Origin: a virus
IMG/VR virus record: IMGVR_UViG_3300028590_000551
Span: 1 to 51,509 of that record
Strand: one strand, 5' to 3'
DNA: 51,509 bases
A program made the translations under genes and the position numbers. The notes beneath the pieces are model-generated. The model was given only the letters and a program-made list of their open reading frames with translations, searched no databases and was not told the origin of the DNA. Below, in pieces: positions 170-43,535 of the stretch (position 1 is the stretch's first letter; each line of letters opens with the position of its first letter).

Positions 170-197
170 CTTTAACATAATAGGCATTAGCTTACGC
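170..197 (-). other. attL, hybrid Xer-type site
   Basis: On the minus strand the 28 bp read as a poor XerC-type arm GCGTAAGCTAA (phage side), a central hexamer TGCCTA, and a good XerD-type arm TTATGTTAAAG (chromosome side), which matches E. coli dif TTATGTTAAAT at 10 of 11 bases. The 15-bp core 175-189 is repeated at attR. Seen: the repeat and arms. Inference: crossover occurs within or beside TGCCTA. Confidence 0.8.
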
Positions 198-243
198 GCT
201 AACCATCTGAATCTTCAGCGGTTTACCGATACAGGAAACATCG

Positions 244-1200
244 GTGAACCCAGCTTCCCAACCATACAACGACGGGCCAGACCGCGCCCATCCTTGCAGC
301 ACTTCCCACGTTAAGCCCGCGCCTGGCGCGCCGCACGAAGCCGTGGTTTCCCCTGCATTTCGCTACCACGGTGGGAAGTTCCGCCTGTCGGGGTGGGTCC
401 AGCAGTTTTTCCCGCCACACGAGATCTACGTCGAGCCGTTCGCTGGCGCTGCCAGCGTGCTACTTACGAAGCCGCGGACGCAGGCCGAGGTCTACAACGA
501 CCTCGACGGGGACGTGGTCAACCTATTCCGTGTCCTGCAGAACGGCGAACAGCGTGACCGGCTGATTGAGGCCTGTTCACTGACGCCGTACGCGCGGGCC
601 GAGTTCGATCTAGCGTGGCAGGCCAGCGACGACCCCGTCGAGAGAGCCCGCCGCCTGGTGATCCGCGCGCAGATGGGCTTCGGATCAGCAGGTGCGTCGA
701 AAGGCACGACAGGGTTTCGCATTGACACCCGGCGCCGCTACGGGACGGCACAAGACCTTTGGCTGCGATTCCCGGAGGGACTGATGTCCGGCGCGTCCCG
801 CTTCACTGGGGTGCTGATCGAGAATCGCCCAGCGGTAGAGGTGATGCGGCAGCACGATAGCCCCGTCACGCTCCACTACGTTGACCCGCCATACCTCCAT
901 TCAACACGCGTCATAGCCAAGGGGAAGGCGGGCTATTACCGCCACGAAATGTCGGAGGCAGATCACGTCGCCCTGCTCGACGTGATCCTTGGGTTGCGGG
1001 GCGCAGTGCTGGTGTCTGGCTACCAGTCCCCGCTGTACGACGAAGCGCTGGCGGGATGGACGCGCCACACCACGAAATCACGCATCTCTGCTGGCAGAGG
1101 AACCGCGCTGCGCACCGAATGCCTGTGGGTCAGCCCGATCGCAGTCGCGGCCAGTTCGGCGCCGAAACAACAGCAGCTGGGCATCGAGGTCGGAGCATGA
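244..1200 (+). CDS. D12-class DNA adenine N6-methyltransferase (Dam-like)
   Basis: A 318-residue protein of the Dam/D12 class, which transfers a methyl group from S-adenosylmethionine to adenine N6 in DNA. Motif I region is YHGGK (41-45) with VEPFAGAAS (63-71); the catalytic motif IV is DPPY (214-217); YNDLD (84-88) is also typical. The GTG start at 244 has AGGAAA about 7 bases ahead and is only 47 bases inside attL. No restriction enzyme gene lies beside it, so it is probably an orphan phage methylase that protects phage DNA from host restriction or alters regulation. Its stop overlaps the next start (ATGA). In the circular phage it would follow SSB and attP, so it probably belongs to the early operon. 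Confidence 0.9.
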   Translation: MNPASQPYNDGPDRAHPCSTSHVKPAPGAPHEAVVSPAFRYHGGKFRLSGWVQQFFPPHEIYVEPFAGAASVLLTKPRTQAEVYNDLDGDVVNLFRVLQNGEQRDRLIEACSLTPYARAEFDLAWQASDDPVERARRLVIRAQMGFGSAGASKGTTGFRIDTRRRYGTAQDLWLRFPEGLMSGASRFTGVLIENRPAVEVMRQHDSPVTLHYVDPPYLHSTRVIAKGKAGYYRHEMSEADHVALLDVILGLRGAVLVSGYQSPLYDEALAGWTRHTTKSRISAGRGTALRTECLWVSPIAVAASSAPKQQQLGIEVGA

Positions 1201-2138
1201 AGGCACCGGCCACCCAGCTGTATTGGAAAGAGTGGGTGGGCGACATGGCGCTGGGGCGCTGTTCGCTCGCCGCCCAGGGCGCATGGGTGCGCATCCTGGC
1301 CGTGCTTCACCAGTCGGACGAATACGGGGTGCTGCGCTGGCCCCTGGCCGAACTGGCATCGGCCGCGAACGTTCCGCTGCGTTATGCGCGCGAATTGGCG
1401 ACAAAAAGCGTGCTGAAAGGCAGCGAACGTTTCGATACCGACTTCGTGCATACGCCGAGGCATGCGGGGCGTGATCTTCCTTCGGTGATTCTAGTGAAGG
1501 CAGACGGCGGAAGTTGTTGGTTTTCCGCGCGTTTTGTCCGCGATGAGTGGCGGCGAACGCAGCGCGGCGCCACCACACGCTTCACTGAAACGAACCAACC
1601 CAGCCGGTCACCGACCGGGCGGGTGGGTGAACGGCAAGGTGACGGCCCTGCTTTTGCTTCTGCTTCTGCTTCTTCAGGTATAGATAAATCTCTACGAGAG
1701 GATAGATCCCAAGAGGGCGCCGACGACCTGGCGCGCGCGCTTCGTGGAGTAGCGGGGTACAGCGAATGCGGGGCGTTCGTTCCCGAACTGCTGGAAGCCA
1801 AGGCGGCAGGGGTAACACCGGAGCAGATCGCCAACGTCGCACGCGAGAAGCAGGGCAAGTCGGTCGCCTACATCGCGCGTACCGCGATCGGTCGACAGCT
1901 GGACAAGCAGCAGCAGGCCAGCGAGGTACCAGGTGCGCCGGCAGTCGCCGCGGTTGACCCCGAGGCCAGGGCGCGAGCGGACGAACTCCGCGCCATCGGC
2001 GACCAGCTGATCGACCTGCGGCACCACCGTGACCACACGGGGATGCTCAGTGCCGACGACTACACCGAACGCGCGGCGCCGCTGCTGGCGCGGTGGCGTG
2101 AACTGCAGCCGGCCGCGGCGATGGGGGCTGCTTCGTGA
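1197..2138 (+). CDS. Phage replication-module protein, DUF1376-like N-terminus
   Basis: A 313-residue protein starting at the ATG that overlaps the methylase stop (ATGA). The first 50 residues (LYWKEWVGDMALGRCSLAAQ) resemble DUF1376-type phage proteins, which sit in the position of replication initiators or helicase-loader-like proteins; the reaction is not known. A low-complexity Ala/Ser linker is encoded by three TGCTTC copies (1655-1672), followed by a strikingly AT-rich, rare-codon stretch around 1677-1710. The C-terminal third is helical and charged. The replication role is inferred from position and family resemblance only. A helical, unrelated regulator is the alternative. Confidence 0.5.
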   Translation: MKAPATQLYWKEWVGDMALGRCSLAAQGAWVRILAVLHQSDEYGVLRWPLAELASAANVPLRYARELATKSVLKGSERFDTDFVHTPRHAGRDLPSVILVKADGGSCWFSARFVRDEWRRTQRGATTRFTETNQPSRSPTGRVGERQGDGPAFASASASSGIDKSLREDRSQEGADDLARALRGVAGYSECGAFVPELLEAKAAGVTPEQIANVAREKQGKSVAYIARTAIGRQLDKQQQASEVPGAPAVAAVDPEARARADELRAIGDQLIDLRHHRDHTGMLSADDYTERAAPLLARWRELQPAAAMGAAS

Positions 2139-2433
2139 TCCTCGCTTCCCATTCATTGCGCGCAAACACTGTTGTTACCCTTGGCGTGGAACATCCGCAC
2201 GGGCTGGCTGCATCCCTTGTGGCAGTAGGCGGAACCGCTGGACGCCCTCGCCGTGGAACGTTCCACGGGCTTTGGAACAGACCGGCGATCGGGGCGCGTA
2301 AGTCATTGATTCGTAAGGGTTCTGGCGTGGTGTCCGGACCGGGGCGCTACGCGGCACCGCAGCAGGGGGGGCACCCCCCCTTTGTTCCACGGGCACCCCG
2401 AGGGGGGCGGCCCAACTACTGCCGCCTCGAAAA
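2139..2433. promoter_or_regulatory. 295-bp non-coding region with repeated TGGAAC half-sites
   Basis: This gap precedes the first recombinase and the late genes. It holds CGTGGAACA (2185-2193), an 18-bp perfect palindrome CCGTGGAACGTTCCACGG (2251-2268), TGGAACA (2273-2279) and TGTTCCACG (2383-2391). CGTGGAACA and TGTTCCACG equal half-sites of the parS consensus, but no full parS is present. G7 (2365-2371) faces C7 (2374-2380). A 114-codon frame opens at GTG 2135 but is rich in Gly, Pro and Arg and looks non-coding. An operator, a late promoter region or a replication origin is possible. No clear -35/-10 pair was found. Confidence 0.45.
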
Positions 2434-3615
2434 ATGGGAAGGGTTCCCAAGGGCGACGACCCCCGGCGGTGCCGCGTGAACGCGCCGGACATCGCGCCAC
2501 TGCCCGATGGCGTCGCCGAAGCGCTGGCAGGGCTCCCCAATGGCCGCGAGTTGCCCGCGCACCGCGCGTGGCTGCTGGCGAGCGAACCGCGCTTCGCCGA
2601 GGTCATGCGCCGCGTGGAGCGGCGCGGCCTGCCGCCGCGCAGCCTGGCCGAACTGTGGCTGTGGCTGGTCCACCTGACCATCGACTGCGGGTCACGGCCG
2701 GCGACCACGGGGCAGTCGTACGGCCGCACGGCCGGCCGCTTCCTGGCGTGGGCCGCCTGCAACGGCATCGACTTCACGCAGGCCACGCTGGAAGACCTGA
2801 ACCGCTGGCAGCGCTGGCTGGCCGTGGAATGCAAAAACGGGAATACGTGGCGTGCACAGCAAGTGCAGGCGCTACGCAACTTTTTCGACTGGCGCCGCGC
2901 CTGCGGCCTGGCGAAGGCGAACGCGGCGGCCGACCTGCAGGGCCCGAAGGTCAAGCCGAAGCCGGCGAAGAAATACACCGACGACCAGCTGCGCGCCCTG
3001 TTCGCCGCGATCGCCAGCGCCAACCCGCTGCGGTCGGTGCGGGACCGCTGCGCCACGCTGCTGCTGCTGACCACAGGGCTGCGCCGCGAAGAGCTCGCCA
3101 GCCTGAAGCTGGCGCACCTGGAACTGAGCGCGGCACGCGGCGTCGTGCGCATCGAAGGCAAAGGGGCCAAGGAACGCGAAGTGCCATTCGAAGGACCAGT
3201 GGTCACCGCCCTGCACGAATGGCTGGCAACCCGCGACGGCCTGCCGTTCGACATCAACCGCGATGCGGTGTTCGTCGCGCTGACCGGGCCCACGCAAGGA
3301 CACGCGCTGGCGCTGCGGAGCTTCGAAGCGATGGTCGGCAAGCACGCGAAGGCGGCGAAGCTGCGCGACTGGGGTATCCATCGCTTCCGCGTGACGTTCG
3401 CCACGCAGCTGTACGACGACGGCGCGGACATCGAAACCATCCGCGCCCTGATGGGACACGAAAGCATCGAGACGACGCGCGGCTATCTCGCCGTGTCGGA
3501 GCGCGCGCGACGCACGCGCCTGAGTTCAGCGCGCCAGCACCGCGTGCTGGGAACCAAACCAACAGGCACACCCATGTGGGCGCGCCTGGCAGCAGGGGAA
3601 CTGTCGAGTGATTGA
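2434..3615 (+). CDS. Tyrosine recombinase, XerC/D-like (first of three)
   Basis: A 393-residue tyrosine recombinase with an N-terminal SAM-like core-binding domain (about 85-175) and a C-terminal catalytic domain (about 180-365). All catalytic residues are visible: R217 (GLRREE), K243 (GKGAKE), H316 and R319 (HRFR), H342 (GHES) and nucleophile Y351 (TTRGYL). The start is uncertain: ATG 2434 lacks a good Shine-Dalgarno, and GTG 2476 is possible. It lies far from both att sites, in front of the packaging genes, which is unusual for an integrase. It may act on a different site, or resolve dimers. Its stop overlaps the next gene by 8 bases. Confidence 0.85.
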   Translation: MGRVPKGDDPRRCRVNAPDIAPLPDGVAEALAGLPNGRELPAHRAWLLASEPRFAEVMRRVERRGLPPRSLAELWLWLVHLTIDCGSRPATTGQSYGRTAGRFLAWAACNGIDFTQATLEDLNRWQRWLAVECKNGNTWRAQQVQALRNFFDWRRACGLAKANAAADLQGPKVKPKPAKKYTDDQLRALFAAIASANPLRSVRDRCATLLLLTTGLRREELASLKLAHLELSAARGVVRIEGKGAKEREVPFEGPVVTALHEWLATRDGLPFDINRDAVFVALTGPTQGHALALRSFEAMVGKHAKAAKLRDWGIHRFRVTFATQLYDDGADIETIRALMGHESIETTRGYLAVSERARRTRLSSARQHRVLGTKPTGTPMWARLAAGELSSD

Positions 3616-6614: not shown

Positions 6615-6889
6615 TCGTGACCGATCACGCCCGCCAGCGATGGGAAGAGCGGTTCCCGGGCCGCGACATGGTGGCCGAGTTCACCACGTCGCGCCGACCC
6701 GGAAAAGCAACGCGGCGGAAGCTGGCCAATCAGCTGTCGGATGACACGCGCAAGCGCACGCGGGGCGTTGGGCGCTACTACCTCGTTTCCAAAGCCGGCG
6801 CCGTGTTCGTGTGCACGCCGCCGGAAACCATCATCACCACGTTTCCGCTGACCGGGAACACCGACTGGAAGACACCATGCGCATCATGA
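6611..6889 (+). CDS. Hypothetical phage protein
   Basis: A 92-residue basic protein translated from an ATGA overlap with terL. It begins IVTDHARQRWEERFPGRD and has a beta-rich centre (GRYYLVSKAGAVFVCT) that resembles the small DUF4258 or RelE-like fold, but the resemblance is faint and no catalytic set is clear. It overlaps the portal start by 13 bases. Its place between terminase and portal suggests a packaging accessory. Function not recognised. Confidence 0.55.
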   Translation: MIVTDHARQRWEERFPGRDMVAEFTTSRRPGKATRRKLANQLSDDTRKRTRGVGRYYLVSKAGAVFVCTPPETIITTFPLTGNTDWKTPCAS

Positions 6890-9012
6890 ATCTGTGGCCG
6901 GAATGGCCGTGGTCCGCCCGTCGCAAGGCGGCCACCAATGGCGGCATCGCGGCATCCCTGCGCGAAGGCCAGGGCATGGGCGTGTGGCAGGACATCATGG
7001 GCACGTGGCAGCCCCGGTCGCGCAACCCGTACCTGCTGGAGGCGCTGCGCGAGGCGATCCCGATCCTGGACGGCGGCATCAGCCGGCTGACCACGATGGA
7101 CGGCATCATCACGGTGGAGGGCGCCAACGACAAGCTGGTGCAGGAAATCGAGCAGTGGATGAACAACGTGCCGGTCAACGACCTGGAAACGGGATACCAG
7201 GCGTTCTACCGATCGCAGGGCGATGAACACTACGAACAGGGCGTTGGCATCGGCGAATTCATCTACGACGGCCGCGGCCGGGAGGTGATCGGCCTGCGTG
7301 TGGCGGACAGCAAGGGCGTGTGCTTCGTGCGACACGAAGGGGTGCTGCGAACGTTCTACCGCGCGCCCGAGCCCGACAGCGACCGTCGACCCGATGGGCT
7401 TGGCCAGGTGGAACAGATCCTGCGCGGAAGCGTACGGCACGACGTGCTGTCCGGTCTGCGCACGCTGGGCTTCGTGGAGCTTGATGCGCGCCAGTTGGTG
7501 TTCGCGTTGAACAAGCCGGAAGCCGACAACCCCTACGGCACCAGCATTCTGCGCAGCATCCCGTTCGTGGCGCAGATCCTGCTGAAAATGCAGAACGCCA
7601 CCGGCCGGGCGTGGGAGCGCTTCGGCGACCCCAGTTACCACGTGCACTACGGAACGAAGAACTCCAAAGTGGACAACCCGGAAGCGCAGAAGCGCGCCAA
7701 CGTCATTGCGGAAAACCTCGGCAAAGCGATGTTGGCGAAGAAGCGAGGCAACAGCATGGATCTCGCCACGGCCGCAGCGAAGGATGACGAAATCAAGGTC
7801 GGGGTGATCGGCGGCGCTGGCGAAGTGCTGGAAATCGAAGCGCCGGCACGCAGCATGCTGGAACAGATCGTGGCCGGGTTCGGCCTGCCGCCGTGGATGC
7901 TGGGCATCACCTGGTCGCAGGCCGCCGGCATCGGCGAACAGCAGTCGGTCGTGGTGCTGCAGGAATCGGAAACCCGGTTCGCCGTGCGCAAGCCGCAACT
8001 TCGCCGCCCCATCGAAGCCATGCTGCGCGCACGCGGGCGCACCTGGAAGCCGGGCGACTGGGATCTGGTGCAGCGCCTGCCCAACCTGATGGACGAGCAG
8101 AAGCGCGCGCAGGCTGGCTTCCTGCGGGCCCAGACGGCCCTGATGCTGGGCGAGAGCGGCCAGGTGGACCCGGCCGAGCTACGCCGCGGTATCGACAACA
8201 ACCTGCGCACGCCGCGCAGTCCGCGCACCGGCAAGGCGCGCACGAAGTCCGACGACACCACGGAGGGCGAACCATGGGCGCGCAACGACCCCGCGCTGCC
8301 CGCGCTGGAAGCCACAGCGTCCAGCGCGCTGAAGCGACAGTGGCACGCACTGGCGGCTGATGCCCTGCGCACGCTGGGCTTGGACACGCCTGACGGCGAA
8401 GCGTTCGAACTGGCGCCAGGCACGGAAGCCATGCTGCTGGCGCAGGGCAATGCGCGCGTGCCAGCCATGGCGAAGGCGTTGCTGGAAGCGCAGCTTGGCG
8501 CGTGGGATCGCGGTGTGCGTAACGGCGCCGACGACCTGGACGGCGGCAGAGGCGCCAAGGGGCTGATGGACGACCCGGTGGTGCAGGCCGCCATCGCGCG
8601 GCTGCGCGATCGCGTGCGCGAATCGCTGGCGCAGACGGGGCTGCAACTGGTGCGCGACGGATTCGCACGGCAGTACCAGTCGCGCATCGTCGCCGCGCTG
8701 GCGTCGGGTGAGTTCGACGGGCAGAACCCTGTGAACGTCGCGCGCGAACTGCAGCGCCGCTTCGATGGTGGCGACTACAACTGGGAACGGCTGGCGCGTA
8801 GCGAAATCGCCATGGCGCAGTCCGATGGATCGCTCGCGCTGTACGAACAGCAGGGCATCACGCTGGTGGACTACAGCACGGCGGAGGACGCGGCCGTGTC
8901 GACCATCTGTCGGGAGCTTGCCGCGGCCGGTCCGTACACGCTGGACAAGGCGCCGGTACCGGTGCGCGACTCGCACCCGAACTGCCGGTGCGCGATCGTG
9001 CCGAACGCCTGA
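6877..9012 (+). CDS. Portal protein fused to SPP1 gp7-type minor head protein
   Basis: A 711-residue protein from ATG 6877, which has GGAAGA 6 bases ahead; an upstream extension to 6811 is open but overlaps the previous gene. Residues 1-430 resemble DUF935-type portal proteins (PYLLEALREAIPILDGGISR, then PPWMLGITWSQAAGIGEQQS), the dodecameric ring through which DNA enters. The C-terminal 280 residues end in YTLDKAPVPVRDSHPNCRCA, the hallmark of the gp7/Mu F head morphogenesis domain. In most phages these are two adjacent genes; here they are one frame with no stop. The linker (about 445-480) is Pro/Arg/Thr rich. Confidence 0.85.
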   Translation: MRIMNLWPEWPWSARRKAATNGGIAASLREGQGMGVWQDIMGTWQPRSRNPYLLEALREAIPILDGGISRLTTMDGIITVEGANDKLVQEIEQWMNNVPVNDLETGYQAFYRSQGDEHYEQGVGIGEFIYDGRGREVIGLRVADSKGVCFVRHEGVLRTFYRAPEPDSDRRPDGLGQVEQILRGSVRHDVLSGLRTLGFVELDARQLVFALNKPEADNPYGTSILRSIPFVAQILLKMQNATGRAWERFGDPSYHVHYGTKNSKVDNPEAQKRANVIAENLGKAMLAKKRGNSMDLATAAAKDDEIKVGVIGGAGEVLEIEAPARSMLEQIVAGFGLPPWMLGITWSQAAGIGEQQSVVVLQESETRFAVRKPQLRRPIEAMLRARGRTWKPGDWDLVQRLPNLMDEQKRAQAGFLRAQTALMLGESGQVDPAELRRGIDNNLRTPRSPRTGKARTKSDDTTEGEPWARNDPALPALEATASSALKRQWHALAADALRTLGLDTPDGEAFELAPGTEAMLLAQGNARVPAMAKALLEAQLGAWDRGVRNGADDLDGGRGAKGLMDDPVVQAAIARLRDRVRESLAQTGLQLVRDGFARQYQSRIVAALASGEFDGQNPVNVARELQRRFDGGDYNWERLARSEIAMAQSDGSLALYEQQGITLVDYSTAEDAAVSTICRELAAAGPYTLDKAPVPVRDSHPNCRCAIVPNA

Positions 9013-9026
9013 CCGTTAACCAACGG

Positions 9027-9053
9027 GGGAGACGGCGCATTGGCGCGTCTCCC
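9027..9053 (+). other. RNA hairpin after the portal gene
   Basis: GGGAGACG and CGTCTCCC form an 8-bp stem with an 11-base internal region, 15 bases after the portal stop. No T-run follows, so an intrinsic terminator is unlikely. A processing or stabilising hairpin is possible. Confidence 0.4.
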
Positions 9054-13733: not shown

Positions 13734-14729
13734 ATGCCACAGGCCACCGGTGCACTGACCAAACTGCTGGGCGTAACCCAGTCCGCCCTAAAGGCTGTTC
13801 CCGCGTCACCGGATGCGGAAATCCTGTACGTGCGCACGTACGACTACGACGCCGACCAGCCGCTGGAAAGCGACCCCACGCTCGCCGGCGGCCTCCGTGG
13901 AGAGCAACGCGGCGAGCGCGGGCGAGTGGACGGCAGCGGCAGTGCCGTGCTCACGCTGGGCACCAGCATCGGCTTCTGGTTGAAACATCTGGTTGGCGCA
14001 CCGACGACGGTGGGCGCTGCCTCGCCGTATACGCATACGTTCCAGGTTGGCAATGGAGCCAACGCCATTCCTCCTGCAATGCTGATCGAGGCTGACTACA
14101 GCAGCCGGATTGCAACCCCTGGCCGCTATGACCGCGACATGGATATCCGTGTCGAGTCCGCCACCTTCGCGTTCAGTACAGGATCTGCATTCCAGCAGGC
14201 CACGTTCAACCTGCGCGGCGCCAGCCTGTCCACCCAGCCTGGTGCGCCGGTGGATGCCTCGCCGACCGACTACGGCCACGTGGGCTGGGGGGTGTCCGGC
14301 GTGACGCTGGAACTGGACGGCGGTGCCACGCAGGTGTGCGTGGAAACGCTGAACGTGACCTGGAACAACGACCTGGACACGGACCTGTATTGCCTCAACG
14401 ACGGTGGCCAGCGGCATGACTTGCCGGAAGGTCGCGCGATCGTGACGGGCGACGGCGTCGCCCAGTTCGATTCCCCGGTGCTTCGCGCCAAGGCGCTGGC
14501 CGGTACCGATCTGGCACTGAAGGTCACCCTGAAGCGCGGCTCCGGGGCTGGCACCGTCGGCAACGAACAGCTGGAACTGACCATCCCTGTATCGGTGATC
14601 AAGGCTCCCAAGCCGCCCATCAGCGGCCCGCGCGGCCTGAAACAGAACTTCACTTTCCAGGCCTACCGCGCGACCGGTGCGGAACTGGCCGTCACGTGGG
14701 TGCTGAAGAGCCCCCGCGCGGCGATCTGA
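13734..14729 (+). CDS. Tail tube protein
   Basis: A 331-residue beta-rich protein in the position of the major tail tube subunit, whose hexamers stack around the tape measure. Features include SPYTHTFQVGNGANAIPPAM, an internal DADSP-like loop and a C-terminal domain (LALKVTLKRGSGAGTVGNEQ, then LELTIPVS) of Ig-like appearance. It is larger than lambda V, consistent with an added Ig-like domain. GGAG precedes the ATG only weakly. Its neighbour downstream is the G-like chaperone gene, as in lambda. Confidence 0.75.
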   Translation: MPQATGALTKLLGVTQSALKAVPASPDAEILYVRTYDYDADQPLESDPTLAGGLRGEQRGERGRVDGSGSAVLTLGTSIGFWLKHLVGAPTTVGAASPYTHTFQVGNGANAIPPAMLIEADYSSRIATPGRYDRDMDIRVESATFAFSTGSAFQQATFNLRGASLSTQPGAPVDASPTDYGHVGWGVSGVTLELDGGATQVCVETLNVTWNNDLDTDLYCLNDGGQRHDLPEGRAIVTGDGVAQFDSPVLRAKALAGTDLALKVTLKRGSGAGTVGNEQLELTIPVSVIKAPKPPISGPRGLKQNFTFQAYRATGAELAVTWVLKSPRAAI

Positions 14730-28658: not shown

Positions 28659-28741
28659 GGGACTCAACAGGAGGCCCGCCACTCCAATCAGGGGTTCGGC
28701 CACCGTGCGGGGGCGGGGGCCAGGCGGCCCCACGTTCAGAC

Positions 28742-28827: not shown

Positions 28828-28828
28828 T

Positions 28829-29062
28829 ATGAATTGCATCCCGACCCAACCCCAGAACCCGGTCGACCTGTGGGTGGCGCTGTTCCCGACCGTAGGCGAA
28901 GCCGCCAATGCGGCCGGCGTGTCCACCGAAATGCTGCGCAAGATCCGCCGTCGTGGGTACGTTTCCACGCGGGATCGGGCCATCAAGATGGCGGAGGCGG
29001 CGGGCGGGGTAGTGACGGCCGCCGAACTGCTGGCGGTGCATCAGGCCGCGGGGGCGCACTGA
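28829..29062 (+). CDS. Cro-like regulator
   Basis: A 77-residue protein, the first gene of the rightward early operon. The helix-turn-helix is at about 20-45 (TVGEAANAAGVSTEMLRKIR), similar to YdaS/Cro-type phage regulators. It is divergent from the repressor gene. There is no Shine-Dalgarno before the ATG, which fits the leaderless start predicted from the promoter. The stop overlaps the serine recombinase start (TGATG). Confidence 0.75.
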   Translation: MNCIPTQPQNPVDLWVALFPTVGEAANAAGVSTEMLRKIRRRGYVSTRDRAIKMAEAAGGVVTAAELLAVHQAAGAH

Positions 29063-29856
29063 TGCGCGCCCTGGGCTACATCCGCGTGTCGACCGAAGAG
29101 CAGGCGGGGCAGGGGCACAGCCTGGCCCTGCAGCCCGACATGATCCGCCAGTGGTGCGGCCTGTTCGGCCACACCCTGGTCGACGTGGTGGAAGACCGGG
29201 GCATCAGCGCCGGCATCGCGCTGCACAAGCGCCCCGGGGGCCGTGAACTGCTTCGCCGCCTGCGCGCCGGTGAAGCCGACGTGGTGGTGGTCTACCGGCT
29301 CGACCGCCTGTTCCGAAACGCGCAGCACGGGCTCAACTTCGTACGCGACGAACTGGACCGCACGGGCGTGGCGCTGCAGTCCATCAGCGAAAAGGTGGAC
29401 ACCACCACGGCGGTGGGCAAGTTCGTGCTGACCATCCTGATGGGTGCCGCCGAATACGAACGCGACCTGGTCCGCGAGCGCACGCGCGCCACGCAGCAGT
29501 CGCTGCGCGAGCGGGGCAGGGTGTACGGCACCACGCCGTATGGCTGTGTGGCCATGGGCGGCACGTGGAGCGATGACGCCGGCCGCGTGGTGGGGCAGTC
29601 GCTGTTCCGCGACCCGGCCACCTGGCCGCACCGCGAACTGATCATGGACCTTCGCGGCCCACACGACGGTCCTGCGCAGATGAGCCTGGAAGCCATCGCC
29701 GACGAACTGTTCAAGCGCGGCATACGCGCGCCCAACGGCGGCAAGCGCTGGCAGAAAACGTCGGTGTCTCGGGTGATCAATTCGCATGGCGGGTTGAAAC
29801 ATATCCCGGCCATGCCGGTGGTTCACGAAGCTGCGGTTTCGGGGGGCGAGGCATGA
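29062..29856 (+). CDS. Serine recombinase (resolvase/invertase type)
   Basis: A 264-residue protein. The N-terminal catalytic domain has YIRVSTEEQ with nucleophile S10, arginines around 62-66, and RLDRLFRN (79-86). The ISEKVDTTTAVGKF segment is typical. A C-terminal part with KRGIRAPNGGKRWQKTSVSR resembles the recombinase domain PF07508 but is short; it lacks the zinc ribbon and coiled coil of large serine integrases. It is immediately after cro, an unusual place for a recombinase. It may invert or excise a segment or help resolve replicons, but no inverted-repeat target was recognised next to it. Confidence 0.85.
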   Translation: MRALGYIRVSTEEQAGQGHSLALQPDMIRQWCGLFGHTLVDVVEDRGISAGIALHKRPGGRELLRRLRAGEADVVVVYRLDRLFRNAQHGLNFVRDELDRTGVALQSISEKVDTTTAVGKFVLTILMGAAEYERDLVRERTRATQQSLRERGRVYGTTPYGCVAMGGTWSDDAGRVVGQSLFRDPATWPHRELIMDLRGPHDGPAQMSLEAIADELFKRGIRAPNGGKRWQKTSVSRVINSHGGLKHIPAMPVVHEAAVSGGEA

Positions 29857-32671: not shown

Positions 32672-33610
32672 ATGTTCTTCCGCAACCTGGTGATGTTCCG
32701 TTTCTCGCCCCTGATGTTGTGGCAAACCGGCACCAACCCGATGGAGCCGGAGAAAGCGACCCTGCAGGACCTGCTGGCAGACGCCGCGCTGAAGCCGGTC
32801 GGCCCGCTGGAACTGTCGTCGCGCGGTTTCGTGTCGCCGTTCGGCCGAGATAGCGATGCGCTGTTCGCGCAGGCCGGCGATGCGCTGTGGCTTACCGTCG
32901 GCGGCGAGGACAAGATCCTGCCCGGCGCCGTGGTCAACGAAGCGCTGCAGAAGAAACTGGCCGAGATTGAGGCCAAGGAAGGGCGGAAGCCGGGCGGCAA
33001 GACGCGCAAGCGCATCAAAGACGACCTGCTGCACGAACTGCTGCCCAAGGCGTTCGTGAAGCCGTCACGCGTCGACGTGTGCATCGACGTGCGCCGTGGG
33101 GTGGTGGCGGTGGATACAGCGGCCCGCAAGGTGGGCGAGGGCGCGGTGTCGGAGATCCGGCGAGCGCTGGGAAGTTTCCCGGCGCTGCCGCTGAACGCCG
33201 AAGTCGCGCCGCGCGCCGTGCTGACCGGCTGGCTGGCGGGCGAGCCGTTACCCGATGGCCTGTGGATGGGTGAAGACGCGGAACTGCGCACGGCGATGGA
33301 GGGCGGTTCCGTCATCAAGTGCCAGGACACCGACCTGCGGTCGGACGAAGTCACCGCCCACCTTGCGACGGGCATGCAGTGCGCCAAGCTGGCGCTGACT
33401 ATGGACGACTGCGTCAGCTTCGTCCTGGGCGAAGACCTGGTGGTGCGCAAGCTGAAGTTCCTCGACGGCGCCGTCGACCGGCTGGAAAACACCGAACACG
33501 ACGACCTGCGCGCCGAACTGGACGCGCGCTTCGCGCTGATGGCGGGCGAACTGGGCCGGCTGTTCGACGTGCTGGAACCGGCGCTGAAGCTGTCGAAGGC
33601 GGAGGGCTGA
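32672..33610 (+). CDS. rdgC: Recombination-associated protein RdgC
   Basis: A 312-residue protein of the RdgC family, recognised by the opening MFFRNLVMFRFS, the LSSRGFVSPFG segment, and PSRVDVCIDVRRGVVAVDTA. RdgC forms a ring-shaped dimer around double-stranded DNA and restrains RecA filament formation. It is usually a host chromosomal gene; here it is in the phage early operon with recombinase, clamp and SSB genes. It may shield the phage genome from RecA-driven recombination or support phage DNA replication. GGGAGG lies near the start. Confidence 0.9.
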   Translation: MFFRNLVMFRFSPLMLWQTGTNPMEPEKATLQDLLADAALKPVGPLELSSRGFVSPFGRDSDALFAQAGDALWLTVGGEDKILPGAVVNEALQKKLAEIEAKEGRKPGGKTRKRIKDDLLHELLPKAFVKPSRVDVCIDVRRGVVAVDTAARKVGEGAVSEIRRALGSFPALPLNAEVAPRAVLTGWLAGEPLPDGLWMGEDAELRTAMEGGSVIKCQDTDLRSDEVTAHLATGMQCAKLALTMDDCVSFVLGEDLVVRKLKFLDGAVDRLENTEHDDLRAELDARFALMAGELGRLFDVLEPALKLSKAEG

Positions 33611-33612: not shown

Positions 33613-34164
33613 ATGCAAGCCGTCCGCTACTACAAAACCAACCATCCCGACGTGATGCGCGCGATCAGCGACCAGCGCGAGGCCCGCCGGACTCTCTGGG
33701 ACCGCGCCACATCGTTTGCCTTCGACTTCGGCGGCAAGCCGGCGATGCTTAGCACCATCACTGATACCTACTTCGGCGGCATCATCTTCACGCCGCCGAA
33801 GCCGACGACCTTCTGGACGGCACCGGACGAACATGGCGCCCAGCGCCCGCGGGCCCGTCCACCTGCGCGAACGACCTGGACGCCCGAAGAGCGGGAGGCC
33901 CACAAGCGGCGCCTAGCTGACTGGGAGGCGCGTCGGCCGCGCGATCACATCCGCGACGAAGGACTGTACGCGGCGATGGGGACCGACTGGGGCTGCCTGC
34001 TGTTCGTCGGCATCGCCTACTTCGACCATGCCGATTATCTCTACGTGGCGACGGCCGCGACCCTCGCACCGCACATGCATGAAATCCTGGGCAGCGAGTA
34101 TCAAGCTGCCCAGCAGCAGGCCAACGCAGTGCGGGCCGCAGAGAAGCAGGCGGTGGCCGCATGA
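33613..34164 (+). CDS. Hypothetical early protein
   Basis: A 183-residue protein with GGAGGG 7 bases before ATG 33613. It starts MQAVRYYKTNHPDVMRAISD, has a central segment with LAMLSTITDTYFGGIIF-like strands, an Arg/Glu-rich middle and a helical C-terminus. Similar proteins occur in early regions of related phages without known role. The stop overlaps the second tyrosine recombinase start (ATGA). Confidence 0.5.
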   Translation: MQAVRYYKTNHPDVMRAISDQREARRTLWDRATSFAFDFGGKPAMLSTITDTYFGGIIFTPPKPTTFWTAPDEHGAQRPRARPPARTTWTPEEREAHKRRLADWEARRPRDHIRDEGLYAAMGTDWGCLLFVGIAYFDHADYLYVATAATLAPHMHEILGSEYQAAQQQANAVRAAEKQAVAA

Positions 34165-35156
34165 ACGTCATCGCCTTCCGCAGCCGCAGCAGCAGCACCG
34201 CGCCGCCCACCACGCCGTCGACGCTGCACCTGACGCCGATGGTAGACCTGTTCCTGGAACGCCTGCGCGTGCGTGGTGCCGCGCGCAACACGCTGCTGGC
34301 GTACGGCAGTGACCTGCGCCACTTCGTCGTGTTCGCCCTGCGCATGGGCGTCGCACTGGCCGGGCAGGTGGACGAACGCCTGGTCAATCGCTGGATCGAC
34401 GCAGGCACGCAGGAACGCCAATGGTCGCGCCGCACCGCGCACCGCAAGCAAATGACCCTGCACAGCCTGTTCCAGTGGGCCATCGGCGAGGGCTACGCGC
34501 TGCGCGATCCCACCACGGACGTGCGCATCACCTTCCGCCCGCGCGCCGTAGTGGCACCGGAACTGGAACCGCTGAAGCGCGTCGTGGCCGCGATCGGCAC
34601 GCAGGCGCCGCTGGACCTGCGCGACCGCGCCATGTGCCTGCTGATGCTGGATGCCGCGCTGCGCGCCAGTGAGGTGGCCTGCATCGACGTGGAGGACGAC
34701 ACCCATCCGCGCCTGCACTGGGTGGACCTGGTGGCGCGCCGCGTGCACGTGCGGCCCAAGGGTGGGGCGGATACCGACGCCGACGTGGTCGGGCTGGAAC
34801 CGCAGACGGTGGAAGCGATCCGCTCGTGGCTGCGCGTGCGCGGAAAGCTGGCCAAGCCCGGCGAGCGGGCGATGTTCGTCAACCAGAACGGTGTGCGCAT
34901 CGGCCGCCAAAGCGTCTACACGATGGTGCGCGCCCGTGGCGCCGCCGCCGGCCTGCCGCGCCTGCATCCGCACCTGTTCCGCCACCGCCGCATCGGCGAC
35001 ATCGTGGAAAAGCTGGGGCTGGACGTGGGCAGCGCGCAGGCCAGGCATCGGCACAAGTCCACCACCGTCAACGTGTACGGAACGCACGCTGCCGAAGTGC
35101 AGCGCAACGCGGTGCGCGAATTGGCGCCGCTGGGAGACATCGCATGCAACGGATGA
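34161..35156 (+). CDS. Tyrosine recombinase, XerC/D-like (second of three)
   Basis: A 331-residue recombinase with a SAM-like N-terminal domain (about 27-115) and a full catalytic set: R168 (ALRASE), K200 (RPKGG), H271 and R274 (HPHLFRHR), H298 (RHRHKS) and Y306 (VNVYG). The KSTTVNVY motif is close to XerC/D and integron-type enzymes. It is translated with the replication genes by ATGA coupling, far from attachment sites. It could assist integration or excision at the Xer-type att, act on the host dif site, or resolve phage multimers. Confidence 0.85.
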   Translation: MNVIAFRSRSSSTAPPTTPSTLHLTPMVDLFLERLRVRGAARNTLLAYGSDLRHFVVFALRMGVALAGQVDERLVNRWIDAGTQERQWSRRTAHRKQMTLHSLFQWAIGEGYALRDPTTDVRITFRPRAVVAPELEPLKRVVAAIGTQAPLDLRDRAMCLLMLDAALRASEVACIDVEDDTHPRLHWVDLVARRVHVRPKGGADTDADVVGLEPQTVEAIRSWLRVRGKLAKPGERAMFVNQNGVRIGRQSVYTMVRARGAAAGLPRLHPHLFRHRRIGDIVEKLGLDVGSAQARHRHKSTTVNVYGTHAAEVQRNAVRELAPLGDIACNG

Positions 35157-35404: not shown

Positions 35405-35901
35405 GCATGACGCAACTGCAGCGCGACGCGCTGGCCCGCGCGAAGGCAGGCGACTGGGAGCTGGCGGACGCCATGGAACTGGTGGAGCGCGCCAAGATCG
35501 AAGCGCCCCATGCGGTAGTGATGGCGTGCGGCGGCTACGAAGAAGAAGCCTCACTGCTGTACGGCGTCGTGGACGGCAACCGCATGCGGTTCCTTGCGTG
35601 GGGGGACGCCAGTGAAACCGAGTGCCAGACCTGTGACGGGAAGGGCGAGACCGAATGTGGTGAGTGTGGCCACACCGAAGAGTGCGAAGACTGCGACGGG
35701 GAAGGCACGACGGATGGTGACGTGGTGGTGCACTGCTTCACTGACATGAATGACAACGTGTTGACGGAGTCCGCCGAGCCGGCCCAGCGAGTCACGCGGA
35801 CGATCAAGTGGGCGCGTGAAACCCTGCAGACGTACCACGCCGAACAGAACGAACTAGCGCGCAAAGCCGTCGGCGATGCGCCCATCATGGAGACTGCTTA
35901 A
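35401..35901 (+). CDS. DnaJ-type zinc finger protein without J domain
   Basis: A 166-residue protein. Residues 75-102 hold CQTCDGKG, CGECGHTE and CEDCDGEG, the CxxCxGxG repeats of the DnaJ cysteine-rich domain (C75, C78, C86, C89, C95, C98). No J domain (HPD motif) is present, so it cannot stimulate DnaK in the usual way. It lies directly before the sliding clamp homologue, with TAATG overlap. It may be a zinc-dependent assembly factor for a phage replication complex. Confidence 0.65.
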   Translation: MSMTQLQRDALARAKAGDWELADAMELVERAKIEAPHAVVMACGGYEEEASLLYGVVDGNRMRFLAWGDASETECQTCDGKGETECGECGHTEECEDCDGEGTTDGDVVVHCFTDMNDNVLTESAEPAQRVTRTIKWARETLQTYHAEQNELARKAVGDAPIMETA

Positions 35902-36977
35902 TGCGCGCCACTGTAGAAGCCGCCGACCTGGTCACCGTCCTGAAGCAGGGCGTGGCCGTGACCGGCAAGACCACCATGGACGTGTTGACGCACGTGCTGA
36001 TCCGCACCGACCGCGACGGGATCACCGTCGAAACCACGGATACCAACACCTATGTGCGCGACCGCATCCCAGCGCGTGTGGATGAGCCGGGCGAAGCGCT
36101 GCTGTCGGCGCCTATGCTGCAAGCCGCCGCAAGTGCTGGCGGCGACATTCGACTGGCGCACGACGGAAAGGTGTCGCGCGGACGCAGCCACTACCGGGTT
36201 CCGTTCCGCGAAGACATCACCGAATTTCCCACGCAGGAAGACGTGCGCTTCGCGCCTGTGGATATCGACCCGCTGGCACTGGCGGCAGCGTTGCGCCAGG
36301 TGGAATACGCACCCGATGCCAACGACGTGCGCGCCATGGCGCAGTCGGTCCACGTGGAAAGGGACCGGGTGTGGGCGACCGATGGCGTGCTGATGGGGCG
36401 CGTCCGTGTCGACTACGACGGGCCCACGATGTCGATTCCGGACAGCCAGCTGAAGCGAGTGCTGGACGTGCTGGGTACTGGCGCCACGTTGCAGGTGGCC
36501 AACGTGCAGGATGGCCAGGCGGGCAGCCTGCGCATCGACAACGGCAACCTGACGATGGTGGTCCGCCTTCGCCACAGCGGACGGTTGGCGGACGTGGAAC
36601 GCCTGGTCCCGATGGCCAACGACAAGCATCCGGAAGTGATCGTGGAGCGGGCGGCATTCATCGCTGCGCTGCGCCGCTTCCAGCCGTTCGTCACGGTCGG
36701 CCGGGTGTCCAACGTGGTGCTGGAAATGGCGGACGGCCGCTTCCGCATGACCAGCCCCAGCGAGGAAAGCGAAGAGGACCTGACCGAACTGGTGAAGTCC
36801 GGAAAGGGTAGTTTCCGCGAGGGCTTCGACGTCAAGCGCATGGTGTCGCTGCTGCAGGGCATCACCACCGACACCGTGCACCTGCTGCCTGGCACCAAAG
36901 GCGCGGTGATGTTGTTCCAGCCGGGGGGCACCACGCGTGACGAAGTGGCCCACCTGCTGATGCCGGTGAGGCTGTAA
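35901..36977 (+). CDS. Phage-encoded beta sliding clamp (DnaN homologue)
   Basis: A 358-residue protein, close in length to bacterial DnaN (about 366). It follows the clamp layout: MRATVEAADLVTVLKQGVAV at the start, a first-domain LIRTDRDGITVETTDTNTYV strand pair, and a C-terminus ending VAHLLMPVRL, matching the DnaN ending of the type YVVMPMRL. Three topologically similar domains are expected. A sliding clamp encircles DNA and tethers DNA polymerase III. No phage polymerase is seen nearby, so this clamp may recruit the host polymerase or compete with host DnaN. Residues lining the partner pocket need structural comparison. Confidence 0.75.
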   Translation: MRATVEAADLVTVLKQGVAVTGKTTMDVLTHVLIRTDRDGITVETTDTNTYVRDRIPARVDEPGEALLSAPMLQAAASAGGDIRLAHDGKVSRGRSHYRVPFREDITEFPTQEDVRFAPVDIDPLALAAALRQVEYAPDANDVRAMAQSVHVERDRVWATDGVLMGRVRVDYDGPTMSIPDSQLKRVLDVLGTGATLQVANVQDGQAGSLRIDNGNLTMVVRLRHSGRLADVERLVPMANDKHPEVIVERAAFIAALRRFQPFVTVGRVSNVVLEMADGRFRMTSPSEESEEDLTELVKSGKGSFREGFDVKRMVSLLQGITTDTVHLLPGTKGAVMLFQPGGTTRDEVAHLLMPVRL

Positions 36978-36980
36978 CCC

Positions 36981-39906: not shown

Positions 39907-40064
39907 GCGCCACCCCGAAACCCATTACCACACTGGCGGACGCCATCGAAGCCGGCGAACACGCCTTGCGACGCGCGCCAACCGGCTGTCCCGCCCTGGT
40001 CACCCCGCACGTGATGCGCATGCTGCTGGAAGCGGCCGCCGCAACGGAGGCCACCCATGGCTGA
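39894..40064 (+). CDS. Short early protein (56 residues)
   Basis: A 56-residue frame from ATG 39894 to the stop at 40064, which overlaps the methylase start by 8 bases. It reads MPQLSATPKPITTLADAIEA, then a helix with HVMRMLLEAAAATEA. Overlaps at both ends and codon bias like its neighbours support coding. No family is recognised. Confidence 0.55.
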   Translation: MPQLSATPKPITTLADAIEAGEHALRRAPTGCPALVTPHVMRMLLEAAAATEATHG

Positions 40065-42027
40065 CGGCGGCGCACGCACGCAGCTGGGCTTTCACCTGCC
40101 CGACATCACCGCCGTGTCGCGCCTGCGCGCGGGCGAAATCGTGGTGGATCTGTTCGCCGGTGGTGGTGGCGCCAGCAAGGCGCTGGAAACCGCACTGGCC
40201 CGCGCCGTGGACGTGGCGATCAACCACAACCCGTGGGCGATCGGCATGCACGCCGCGAACCACCCTTACACCAAGCACCTGTGCGAAGACGTTTGGGAAG
40301 CGGACCCGGTGAAGGAAGCTGCGGGCCGCCCCGTAGGTTGGCTGCACGCCAGCCCGGACTGCACGCACTTCAGCCAGGCCAAGGGTGGTCAGCCGCGCGA
40401 TCGCGCCACGCGATCACTGGCCTGGGTGATTCCGAAATGGGCCGGCAGCCTGAAGCGCAACGGCCGGGCGCCGCGGATCATCAGCATGGAAAACGTCATG
40501 CAGATGATGAAGTGGGGACCGCTGGTCGCCAAGCGTGACAAGGCCACGGGGCGCGTGGTGAAACTGGATGGCACGGTGGCCGCAAAGGGCGAACGCGTGC
40601 CGCTGCAGCAGCAGTTCCTGATCCCCGACAAGCGGCGCGAGGGCCAGACCTGGCGCCAGTTCATTGGCGTGATGCGGGCGCTGGGCTACGTGGCCGAGTG
40701 GCGGAAACTGAAGGCATGCGACTACGGCGCCGGCACCAGCCGCGAACGGTTGTTCGCCGTGTTCCGCTGCGACGGTGAACCGATCCGCTGGCCGGAGCCT
40801 ACCCACGGGCCGGGCAGGGCGCACCCGTACGTGACGGCCGCCGACTGCATCGACTGGTCGATTCCTTGCCCGTCCATCTTCACCCGCGCCAGGCCGCTGG
40901 CCGATGCCACCATGAAGCGCATCGCCCGGGGCGTGAAGCGCTACGTGCTGGACGCCGCCGAGCCGTTCATCGTGCACGCCACGCACGGCGGCGAGCGCCG
41001 CCCGCACGGCGCCAGCGAACCCGGGCCGACGAGCACGGCCGCAAACCGCGGCGAACTGATGGCGGTGTCACCCACGCTTGTGGAGTGTGCCAATGCATCG
41101 GCCGATGGTGTGGCTTCCGCCGACGCGCCCCTGCGCACGATCACGGCTTGGCCGAAGGGCGGTTCGCACGCCGTCGCCGCACCGGTGATGGTGCAGGCCG
41201 GCCACGGCGAAGGCAAGCCCCGGGCAGGGCGGTGGAGTTACGGCGCCAATGACCCGCAGCAGCCCATCGGCACCATCGTGGCAAGCGGCGGCGGTCAGGC
41301 ACTGGCAGCGGCTGCCCTGGTGAAGTTCCGGCACGACAGCGAGGGCGCGCCCGTCGACGCGCCGCTGCCGACCATCACCAGTGGCGCAGGCGCAGCACGC
41401 CCCGCCGGTGCGGCGCACGCCATGGGCGTGATGACGGCGCACCTGGAACAGGCCAATGGCGGCTTCTACGACGGCGACGGAAAGGCCGCAGACGAACCGC
41501 TGTCAACCATCACCAGCAGCGGGACGCAACAGCGACTGGTAACCGCGCACCTCGTCACCAACACCAGCGGACACGCCGGCGCATCCTGCGACGATGCGGT
41601 GCCCACGATCACGACAGGCGGACACCATGGCGTCGTGCAGTGCACCCTTAGCCCGGAACACGAAGCTGGCGCGCTGCGGGTCGCCGCCTTCCTGACACGC
41701 TATTACGGCACGGGCGGACAGCATGGCGAACTGGACGACCCGCTGGCCACCATCACCACGAAGGATCGCCTGGCGCTGGTCACCGTACGGGTGCAGGGCG
41801 TGCCGCACGTCATCGTCGACATCGGCCTGCGCATGCTGCAGCGGCATGAACTCTTCCGCGCGCAGGGTTTCCCGCCGGACTACATCATTGACCGCATGGC
41901 ATGCGGCACGCCGCTTTCCGGCAGCCGCAGCGTGGCCATGGTGGGCAATAGCGTCAGCCCGCCGCCGCTGCACGCGATCGCCGTCGCCAACCTGGACCCG
42001 GCCGACGCCGACAGGATGGCCGCGTGA
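40057..42027 (+). CDS. DNA (cytosine-5) methyltransferase with repeat-rich target domain
   Basis: A 656-residue enzyme that methylates cytosine C5 using S-adenosylmethionine. Motif I is DLFAGGGGAS (31-40), motif IV is SPDC (99-102; C102 nucleophile, with SPDC instead of PC-Q), motif VI is ENV (145-147), motif VIII is SRERLF (228-233), and motif X includes GNSVSPP (630-636). Between them, about 355-570, six degenerate copies of a D-x-PL-x-TIT unit occur (355, 399, 434, 479, 512, 560). This target-recognition region is long, so the protein is above the usual 400-450. Probably an orphan methylase for anti-restriction. No endonuclease is next to it. Confidence 0.85.
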   Translation: MADGGARTQLGFHLPDITAVSRLRAGEIVVDLFAGGGGASKALETALARAVDVAINHNPWAIGMHAANHPYTKHLCEDVWEADPVKEAAGRPVGWLHASPDCTHFSQAKGGQPRDRATRSLAWVIPKWAGSLKRNGRAPRIISMENVMQMMKWGPLVAKRDKATGRVVKLDGTVAAKGERVPLQQQFLIPDKRREGQTWRQFIGVMRALGYVAEWRKLKACDYGAGTSRERLFAVFRCDGEPIRWPEPTHGPGRAHPYVTAADCIDWSIPCPSIFTRARPLADATMKRIARGVKRYVLDAAEPFIVHATHGGERRPHGASEPGPTSTAANRGELMAVSPTLVECANASADGVASADAPLRTITAWPKGGSHAVAAPVMVQAGHGEGKPRAGRWSYGANDPQQPIGTIVASGGGQALAAAALVKFRHDSEGAPVDAPLPTITSGAGAARPAGAAHAMGVMTAHLEQANGGFYDGDGKAADEPLSTITSSGTQQRLVTAHLVTNTSGHAGASCDDAVPTITTGGHHGVVQCTLSPEHEAGALRVAAFLTRYYGTGGQHGELDDPLATITTKDRLALVTVRVQGVPHVIVDIGLRMLQRHELFRAQGFPPDYIIDRMACGTPLSGSRSVAMVGNSVSPPPLHAIAVANLDPADADRMAA

Positions 42028-42440
42028 GCCGAGGGCATCAGGTAGTGGTGGTCACCGGCCGGCTGGGTGCAGATCCGGCAGTGAAGGCGCCACCCAGCGG
42101 CGGCATGGTGGCCGAACTGCGCGTGGCGGTCAGCGAGTCCTACAAGGATCGCGCCGGCAACCGCACGGAACACAAGGAGTGGATACGCATCAAGGTGTTC
42201 GGCCAGGCTGCGGAAGCCGTCCAGCGCTTCCTGAAGAAAGGCGGCCTAGTAACGGTGCAGGGCAGGTTGCACACCGAAAAGTGGACGGCAGGCGACGGCA
42301 GCGACCGCTACAGCACGTGGGTCTATGCCTCGCCCAGCGGCGTGGACATCCACCATCAGCCGGAACACGAAAGCACGCGGGCAGCGCACAGGGGACGCGC
42401 TGCAACGCCCGAACCGGAACCGGCCGCCCCAACCGCGTAG
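42024..42440 (+). CDS. ssb: Single-stranded DNA-binding protein
   Basis: A 138-residue OB-fold protein from GTG 42024 (GTGA overlap). The pattern VVTGRLGADPAVKAPPSGGM, then AVSESYKDRAGNRTEHKEWI and VFGQAAEAVQRFLKKGGLVT, is that of bacterial and phage SSB. It binds ssDNA during phage replication. The C-terminal tail ends EPEPAAPTA instead of the acidic DDDIPF tip that docks host repair enzymes, so partner binding may differ. It is the last gene of the rightward early operon before attP in the circular genome. Confidence 0.85.
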   Translation: MSRGHQVVVVTGRLGADPAVKAPPSGGMVAELRVAVSESYKDRAGNRTEHKEWIRIKVFGQAAEAVQRFLKKGGLVTVQGRLHTEKWTAGDGSDRYSTWVYASPSGVDIHHQPEHESTRAAHRGRAATPEPEPAAPTA

Positions 42441-42462
42441 GACTGGGTGGACGATGACGACT

Positions 42463-43437
42463 TCAGGTTCTGACCGCCGGCAGCCGCTTGGAACGCGGGT
42501 GATGCGCAGCAGCGGTGCGCAGCGTGGTGATGTCGACGCCGAGGTAATGCGTGGTGGTGTCAGCATCAGCGTGGCCCAGCAGCTGCGCCAGCGCCATGAT
42601 GTTTACGCCGCGCTTGTGCAGTTCAGTCGCGAACGCTGCGCGCAGCAGGTGCGGGTAATGGCCGGACCACGGCCGCCCGGTGTAGGCCGCTTCCAGGCGC
42701 GCGAAGCCGCACGCCAGGCCCAAGGCGCGACGTGCATACCGGTTGACCACGACCCACACGCTGCGGCCGTCGCGGAGCGCCTTTCCATGGCGCGTCACGA
42801 ACAAGGCGCTGCGCTTGCCTGGCCGCACCGTGGCGCGCAGGCGCAGGTAAGTCTGCAGGAGGCCGTACCAGGACGGACCGAACGGCACCAGGCGGTCGAC
42901 GCCGCCTTTCCCGCGGACGTACAGGAAGCCATCGATGCGCACGCTGCCAAGTTCCAGCGTGGCCAATTCGCTGGCGCGCAGGCCGCACTGGTAAAGCGTG
43001 GCCATGATGAAGTGATCCCGAAAGCCCACGAACGTGGACAGGTCCGGCGCCGCCAGCAGCAGGCCCACTTCGTGATCCGACAGCGCCCGCGGCAATCGCT
43101 GCGGTGCACGCTTCTGGCGTGGGTAGCCATCGGGCTGCCAGGCGTCCGGATCGGCGACCTTCAGCCAGTTGAACCACGTGCGCAGGGCCGACAGTTCCAG
43201 GTTCAACGACGCCTGTTTCAGCTGGTCGCGCGTGCGCCGCGTGGCCACGTAGCGTGCCACCGGGTCCAACTCGTCGGGCACGTGCACCGCGAACGCCGCA
43301 TAGCGCGACACCGTCGCGCGGTACGCACGCACCGTCGCCGGGCTTCGACCCATGCTGCGCAAGGTGATGACGAAGCGATCCAGCAGCCGGTCAATCTGAC
43401 AATATCCGTGTCTTAGCACCACCAACGGAAATCCCAC
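42463..43437 (-). CDS. int: Integrase-type tyrosine recombinase next to attR (third of three)
   Basis: A 324-residue tyrosine recombinase, the best candidate for the phage integrase because it ends the prophage, 70 bases from attR, on the opposite strand. It has a SAM-like N-terminal domain (about 15-110) and a complete catalytic set: R154 (CGLRASE), K177 (GKGG), H263 and R266 (PHLLR), H289 (GHAD) and Y298 (THYL). It is XerC/D-like in size and motifs, matching the Xer-type att. The start is GTG 43437; no good ribosome site is seen. It faces the SSB gene convergently. Confidence 0.85.
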   Translation of the reverse strand: MGFPLVVLRHGYCQIDRLLDRFVITLRSMGRSPATVRAYRATVSRYAAFAVHVPDELDPVARYVATRRTRDQLKQASLNLELSALRTWFNWLKVADPDAWQPDGYPRQKRAPQRLPRALSDHEVGLLLAAPDLSTFVGFRDHFIMATLYQCGLRASELATLELGSVRIDGFLYVRGKGGVDRLVPFGPSWYGLLQTYLRLRATVRPGKRSALFVTRHGKALRDGRSVWVVVNRYARRALGLACGFARLEAAYTGRPWSGHYPHLLRAAFATELHKRGVNIMALAQLLGHADADTTTHYLGVDITTLRTAAAHHPRSKRLPAVRT

Positions 43438-43507
43438 CCATTCAGAATAGCGGATAAACCGTAGAATATTCAGATAGATGCAGAGCGTATCTAAGGCATC
43501 GCCTTAG

Positions 43508-43535
43508 CTAGTACATAATAGGCATTATGCGAAAT
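43508..43535 (-). other. attR, hybrid Xer-type site
   Basis: On the minus strand the 28 bp read as a perfect XerC-type arm ATTTCGCATAA (chromosome side), central TGCCTA, and a degraded XerD-type arm TTATGTACTAG (phage side). The 15-bp core is at 43513-43527. Seen on the plus strand it is in D-to-C orientation, opposite to the site at 45108-45135. A 7-bp palindrome (CTAAGGC, ATC, GCCTTAG; 43491-43507) lies just inside the phage and may be an arm site. Confidence 0.8.

Follow-up and report, generated by a model that had tools for sequence, protein, structure and literature searches.

Temperate tailed phages that probably integrate at dif by means of a dedicated Xer-like integrase

The dif site of a bacterial chromosome is needed for the separation of sister chromosomes, so that an insertion at this site must keep it working. 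How could this be accomplished by an integrated tailed phage of about 43.3 kb? Such a prophage, siphovirus-like in its gene content, occupies positions 170-43535 of the IMG/VR virus record IMGVR_UViG_3300028590_000551, a stretch of 51,509 bases that was analyzed as a whole and is referred to herein as the window. An earlier note on this DNA had placed the prophage at dif or at a dif-like XerCD site. Judged from the sequence, the site is the real chromosomal dif, and the prophage is probably one case of a clade whose members, all temperate tailed phages, enter dif by means of a dedicated Xer-like integrase. The clade appears to keep dif working by donating half of the site, with its own integrase rather than host XerCD alone. 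The evidence from sequence covers the insertion point, the identity of dif, the structure of the attachment sites, and their co-occurrence with the integrase in many phages.

Both ends of the prophage carry a Xer-type site that reads on the minus strand. At the left end, attL (170-197; plus-strand letters CTTTAACATAA TAGGCA TTAGCTTACGC) consists of a host XerD arm (170-180), a centre (181-186) and a phage arm, GCGTAAGCTAA (187-197), the XerC arm being missing. At the right end, attR (43508-43535; plus-strand letters CTAGTACATAA TAGGCA TTATGCGAAAT) combines a phage XerD arm (43508-43518), the centre (43519-43524) and a host XerC arm (43525-43535) into a complete dif-like site, which scores 40.4 bits against a family dif profile built from 150 Xanthomonadaceae sites. 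The 15-bp direct repeat ACATAATAGGCATTA, which the earlier note had described as part of a Xer-type site, was found at 175-189 and 43513-43527. Joining the outer halves of attL and attR rebuilds, as had been claimed, an empty site that reads ATTTCGCATAA-TGCCTA-TTATGTTAAAG on the minus strand, and its host XerD arm, TTATGTTAAAG, equals that of Escherichia coli dif at 10 of 11 bases. A full dif score (40-44 bits) is reached in the window only by attR and by a separate site at 45108. The best unrelated place scores -5 bits, and the att sites are thus not a product of chance.

The attP of the window phage reads GCGTAAGCTAA TGCCTA TTATGTACTAG. Its arms had been thought to resemble dif only weakly, a view that holds for the XerC-side arm, which is foreign (profile score -20.7 versus +23.6 for the dif arm), and has to be given up for the centre and the XerD side, which form a good half dif. 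The XerD-side arm, TTATGTACTAG, scores 16.8, compared to 18.0 for the native arm TTATGTACAAG of the relative G331, and matches the native XerD arm TTATGTACAAG of G331 and G243 at 10 of 11 bases. Since attP brings the centre and the XerD-side half of dif, attR becomes a complete dif-like site, and attL is left without a XerC arm.

Is the target truly the chromosomal dif? An exact scan of the genome contigs for the 28-base attB gave no match, because the outer XerD bases differ between species. The family was searched with the pattern TTTCGCATAA-6-TTATGT, and sites were found in 246 of 395 Xanthomonadaceae genomes, mostly one in each. In five relatives (G331, G243, G354, G275 and G295), the site immediately follows the host glucokinase gene (glk), and all five lack the integrase. 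The left chromosomal flank of the window holds the 3' end of this gene (3-152, plus strand), the C-terminus of which is 94-100% identical at the protein level to the dif-adjacent copies in G331, G354, G275 and G243. When the two flanks of the window were joined, they aligned unbroken across the junction to the empty sites of G275 (94%, 201 bp), G354 (92%, 212 bp), G331 (88%, 200 bp) and G243 (85.5%, 200 bp), where the order is glk, about 30 bp, and dif. GC skew was read from relatives, as the window is a virus record. In G119, which is complete and belongs with G331 to one GTDB genus, the site is located at 2.007 of 3.972 Mb, where the skew changes sign; among twenty 20-kb samples of this genome, the skew was positive up to 1.9 Mb and negative from 2.1 Mb, with one near-zero exception at 3.3 Mb. 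Moreover, in Stenotrophomonas sp. MMGLT7 (G001), the host-derived halves of the two att sites combine into ATTTCGCATAATGTATATTATGTCAGGA, which is identical to the published dif of Xanthomonas campestris at 28 of 28 bases (PMC2731167). In the relatives, the target has the properties of a chromosomal dif: a length of 28 bp, one XerC and one XerD arm, in most cases a single copy, and a position at the GC-skew switch. Both tests that the earlier note had named as able to refute it, the empty glk-adjacent site and the skew position, support its placement of the prophage at dif.

Relatives of the integrase (Int; 42463-43437, minus strand), whose gene reads away from attR at a distance of 70 bp, occur in Stenotrophomonas sp. 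MMGLT7 (64% identity), Pseudoxanthomonas winnipegensis (59%) and X. codiaei (55%), as well as in G386, G153, the phage MACPNOA1 (49.5%) and viral contigs. In all 19 relatives with upstream sequence (38-66% identity), the integrase match has a half site with TTATGT at a distance of 84-200 bp on its upstream side, with a dif-type TGNNNA centre in 17; the half sites of L150 and L159 have the unusual centres TACATA and TCAATA, and these two assignments are weaker. Archaeal and Lewinella matches (27-30%), which have no dif-like site, were dropped. In front of the half site stands a host XerC arm (ATTTCGCATAA or ACTTCGCATAA type) in the prophages G001, G002, G003, G386, G153, L147, L149, L151, L152 and L156, and a phage arm in the free or permuted phages MACPNOA1, L003, L150, L154, L157, L158, L159 and L160.

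In G001, G003 and several IMG/VR prophages, both att sites were found as a pair whose centres are identical, for example 2919675420 (CCGTAAACTAA TGTACA TTATGTAATTA and ACTTCGCATAA TGTACA TTATGTAATGT) and 3300048930 (ATCTAAACTAC TGCATA TTATGTTCGGA and ATTTCGCATAA TGCATA TTATGTAAATA). The centres TGCCTA, TGTATA, TGTACA and TGCATA all occur in host dif sites, and the minimal sequence common to attL and attR among the pairs found is the centre plus TTATGT. While the phage arm varies between Int clades (GYGTAAGCYAA, ATGCAATCAAA, TCCTGTCAAAC and others), the XerD-side TTATGT is constant; GYGTAAGCYAA, the type seen in attL of the window, is also present in two relatives. The free phage 3300049573 (L140/L157) carries the attP TCCTGTCAAAC TGTATA TTATGTAAAAT, and its close relative, the prophage 3300024996, carries an attL, TCCTGTCAAAC TGTATA TTATGTAAAAT, followed by other DNA (L142), and an attR, ATTTCGCATAA TGTATA TTATGTAAAAT, followed by phage sequence (L156). 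These are the sites before and after exchange, seen directly. L127, a second contig of the window phage that comes from a different sample, starts at window position 176, within the 15-bp repeat, as expected if that sample held more than one junction.

A search of G001-G003 with the pattern TAANNNNNNTTATGTTAAA gave no attL, owing to differences in their host XerD arms; a shared-word comparison of the ends recovered attL in G001 and G003. G386 and G002 were left out of the attL comparison, as the stretches examined hold only ends with the integrase and single-strand DNA-binding protein (SSB) genes and are perhaps remnants or broken assemblies. No attL was found in G153, whose contig stops near the second recombinase gene, YR1 (see below), and a search of the genus around G001 returned only G001 itself. 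A separate observation concerns inverted repeats at the att sites. A perfect one, CTAAGGC-ATC-GCCTTAG (43491-43507), lies in the window immediately next to the XerD arm that attR received from the phage, and another, GGCTTA-N5-TAAGCC, overlaps the phage arm of attL in G001 and G003. Both are possible extra binding sites for the integrase or a regulator.

What enzymes does the phage itself bring? The earlier note had credited it with Xer-like recombinases of its own, and three tyrosine recombinases, Int, YR1 (2434-3615, plus strand) and YR2 (34161-35156, plus strand), and one serine recombinase (28657-29856, plus strand) are present. Int matches PF00589 (1e-20) and the NCBIfam XerC model (1.8e-46), the latter below its cut-off; its XerC and XerD scores are 158.9 and 151.6 bits, versus equivalog cut-offs of 335 and 330. 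YR1, the Xer-like enzyme on the other side of attP, also falls below these cut-offs, with 144 and 132 bits. In the tree, the Int, YR1 and YR2 clades lie apart from host XerC and XerD, a separation that has full support for Int and YR1. By scores and tree alike, Int and YR1 are not orthologues of XerC or XerD. The best matches of Int to solved structures include XerA-type and XerD enzymes. Both Int and YR1 retain the R, HxxR, H and Y residues, and YR1 is conserved in 20 viral contigs and in the prophages G001, G003 and G153. YR2, encoded in the region of the RdgC and beta-clamp genes, has an altered active-site spacing in which the tyrosine is displaced by one position, and similar enzymes occur in MACPNOA1 and G153. 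The catalytic domain of the serine recombinase (resolvase N-terminal domain, residues 138-288) begins only at residue 138, which points to either an unassigned extension at the N-terminus or a start codon annotated too far upstream.

Int, encoded beside attP, most likely catalyzes exchange across the 6-bp dif centre, in the manner of Xer enzymes. In this exchange, attP would contribute a phage-specific XerC-side arm (GCGTAAGCTAA), the host's dif centre and a XerD-side half dif (TTATGTACTAG), and integration would yield an attR with both XerC and XerD arms and an attL without a XerC arm. By analogy with the gonococcal island GGI and the Legionella element LME-1, dimer resolution should continue, attR being a complete dif, and XerCD should be unable to excise the prophage, attL having no XerC arm. 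The arms may be held by Int alone, by Int and YR1, or by Int and host XerD, and the XerD half may be constant because XerD binds it or because a functional dif is selected for at attR. Several points weigh against this account. Catalysis by Int is a prediction; the arms of attB are unlike, and a homomeric integrase would need to bind both; the TTATGT on the XerD side is invariant in all of the phages, which is also compatible with the use of host XerD; and the GC skew is that of relatives.

Of the other explanations, a mixed synapse survives best and may be entertained tentatively. Herein, Int would act on the XerC-side arm and host XerD or YR1 on the XerD-side arm, in a two-recombinase system like XerC/XerD, an idea that overlaps with the reading of a dedicated integrase, since the latter leaves the partner of Int open. 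In its favour, the two arms of each att site are unlike, TTATGT stays the same across Int clades whose phage arms differ, and Int and YR1 flank attP, both being conserved and equipped with active-site residues. Nonetheless, the need to rebuild dif at attR explains the constancy of TTATGT equally well, YR1 lies 2.2 kb from attP and may serve another purpose, and the binding of the arms is putative.

That host XerC and XerD alone integrate the phage at dif, as in the classical integrative mobile elements exploiting Xer (IMEX), with some other role for the neighbouring integrase, appears unlikely. Filamentous phages, GGI and LME-1 do rely on host enzymes, and attP does possess the dif centre and the XerD arm. 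However, all of the relatives examined keep a Xer-like integrase gene at a distance of 84-200 bp, and a XerC arm is lacking in attP (profile score -19 to -30). It is far less probable that the target is the dif-like site of a plasmid or another element instead of the chromosomal dif. A second Xer-type site (45108-45135, plus strand; ACTTCGCATAA CGTCGC TTATGTAAAAC) is found outside the prophage, inverted relative to dif and, as in pdif modules, 1.6 kb away, but the target adjoins glk, is single in most relatives, and sits mid-chromosome at the GC-skew switch in G119; a pdif plasmid site was rejected on the basis of this position and the glk linkage. An assembly chimera, with phage and host contigs joined at a short AT-rich repeat, is scarcely credible: the window is a virus record, and the break in the sister contig L127 falls precisely on this repeat, but the arrangement is also present in isolate genomes (Stenotrophomonas sp. 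MMGLT7, P. winnipegensis and X. codiaei) and several other contigs.

How does a tailed phage with an integrase of its own compare with the elements already known at dif? Cf16-v1 and phiLf, filamentous phages of X. campestris, are single-stranded DNA phages, unlike the window phage, and are not known to have their own integrase. As far as they are cited in PMC2731167, they share the target site and the host family with the window phage. The IMEX elements CTXphi, TLCphi, VGJphi and GGI integrate at dif via a dif-like attP and keep dif, using host XerCD and having no integrase of their own (PMC5357621). The window phage is similar in its location at dif and its dif-like attP, and differs in the conserved Xer-like integrase beside the site. 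GGI and TLCphi retain the XerC arm and the centre and diverge at the XerD arm (PMC5357621); the window phage does the reverse, retaining the centre and the XerD arm. LME-1 is likewise phage-like, carries a partial dif copy, and leaves one intact and one modified dif, but host XerL is sufficient for recombination at its site, a single-recombinase dif (PMC9765430). Tailless Vibrio prophages (PMC11630473; NO16, PMC9966536) are also located at dif, and integrase genes and a dif-like motif occur in some of them, yet they are smaller than 16 kb and have no tail; their authors either leave the choice between host and phage recombinase open or propose XerCD. No tailed phage with its own integrase at dif was found in the open-access literature; subscription journals were outside the search, and absence is unproven. 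Elements at dif are thus already known, and what is new here is tailed phages, with a probably dedicated integrase, that supply the XerD-side half of dif. Their natural set of attP, attL, attR and attB bears on three questions: the route by which a Xer-like enzyme became an integrase, the possibility of a synapse made up of both phage and host recombinases, and the remodelling of dif by mobile elements.

The attachment site also becomes predictable for unplaced phages such as the Microcystis phage MACPNOA1 (KY697807), which resembles the window phage in its integrase and its genes for XerD-like and serine recombinases, a RdgC-type protein and SSB. The region next to its integrase gene reads ACCTAAGCCAC TGTATA TTATGTCAAAC, and targeting of dif by this phage is a prediction of the present analysis. 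MACPNOA1 (L005, KY697807.1) was recorded from a cyanobacterium; the relatives of its integrase are Xanthomonadaceae prophages, and its predicted attP has a proteobacterial-type dif half, which suggests that the host assignment deserves a check.

The second Xer-type site of the window, with its centre CGTCGC, ends a 1.6-kb unit (43550-45150) that begins with GGGTCGGCAGGGATTCGTGAGAAAAACAGCC and contains a SseB-domain gene. The unit resembles the Xer-site cassette of Acinetobacter pdif modules. Six relatives have a comparable site (centre CGTCGC, CATTCC or CATCCG) 1.5-9.9 kb from dif, inverted relative to it in every case, as in the window; G107 and G131 have one with the centre CACATC, 2.2 to 3.4 kb from dif and in the same orientation. 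The dif sites themselves also vary. The 150 Xanthomonadaceae sites were located by fixing no more than their inner halves. Their outer XerD arm is highly diverse, with 44 variants, and their outer XerC arm close to constant, with 10; PMC2731167 shows three further dif sites of proteobacteria, all of which end with TTATGTTAAAT. Turnover by elements with their own XerD arm would fit this variability, and so would a relaxed XerD specificity. It is a rather doubtful proposal that integration employs a hybrid complex, in which a phage Xer-like recombinase takes the phage/XerC arm and its partner, host XerD or YR1, the XerD arm, and that repeated arrivals of such phages have rewritten the XerD side of dif across the Xanthomonadaceae, replacing the XerD arm each time and sparing the XerC arm.

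Over about 8 kb, the right flank of the window shares 94-96% identity with G331 and G265, and these two are thus near relatives of the host. G331 shares its GTDB genus with G002 (P. winnipegensis), and the host is a member of the Xanthomonadaceae in this same genus. The prophage has the head and tail genes of a siphovirus-type temperate phage, an integrase gene beside attP, and direct repeats of the att sites at both ends. No terminase was recognized in it by Pfam, PHROGs or NCBIfam. All of the following genes lie on the plus strand. A D12-class adenine methyltransferase (244-1200) is the first gene inside attL. The structural genes encode a portal/minor head fusion protein (6811-9012), a tail tube protein (13734-14729; PF18906, 2e-25), a tape measure protein (15562-17934) and a J-like tail tip protein (22092-24713; PF24801, 9.5e-13). 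Farther to the right are a RdgC homologue (32672-33610; 1e-137), a DNA polymerase beta-clamp-like protein (35901-36977), a C5 cytosine DNA methyltransferase (40057-42027) and the SSB (42024-42440), which adjoins Int.

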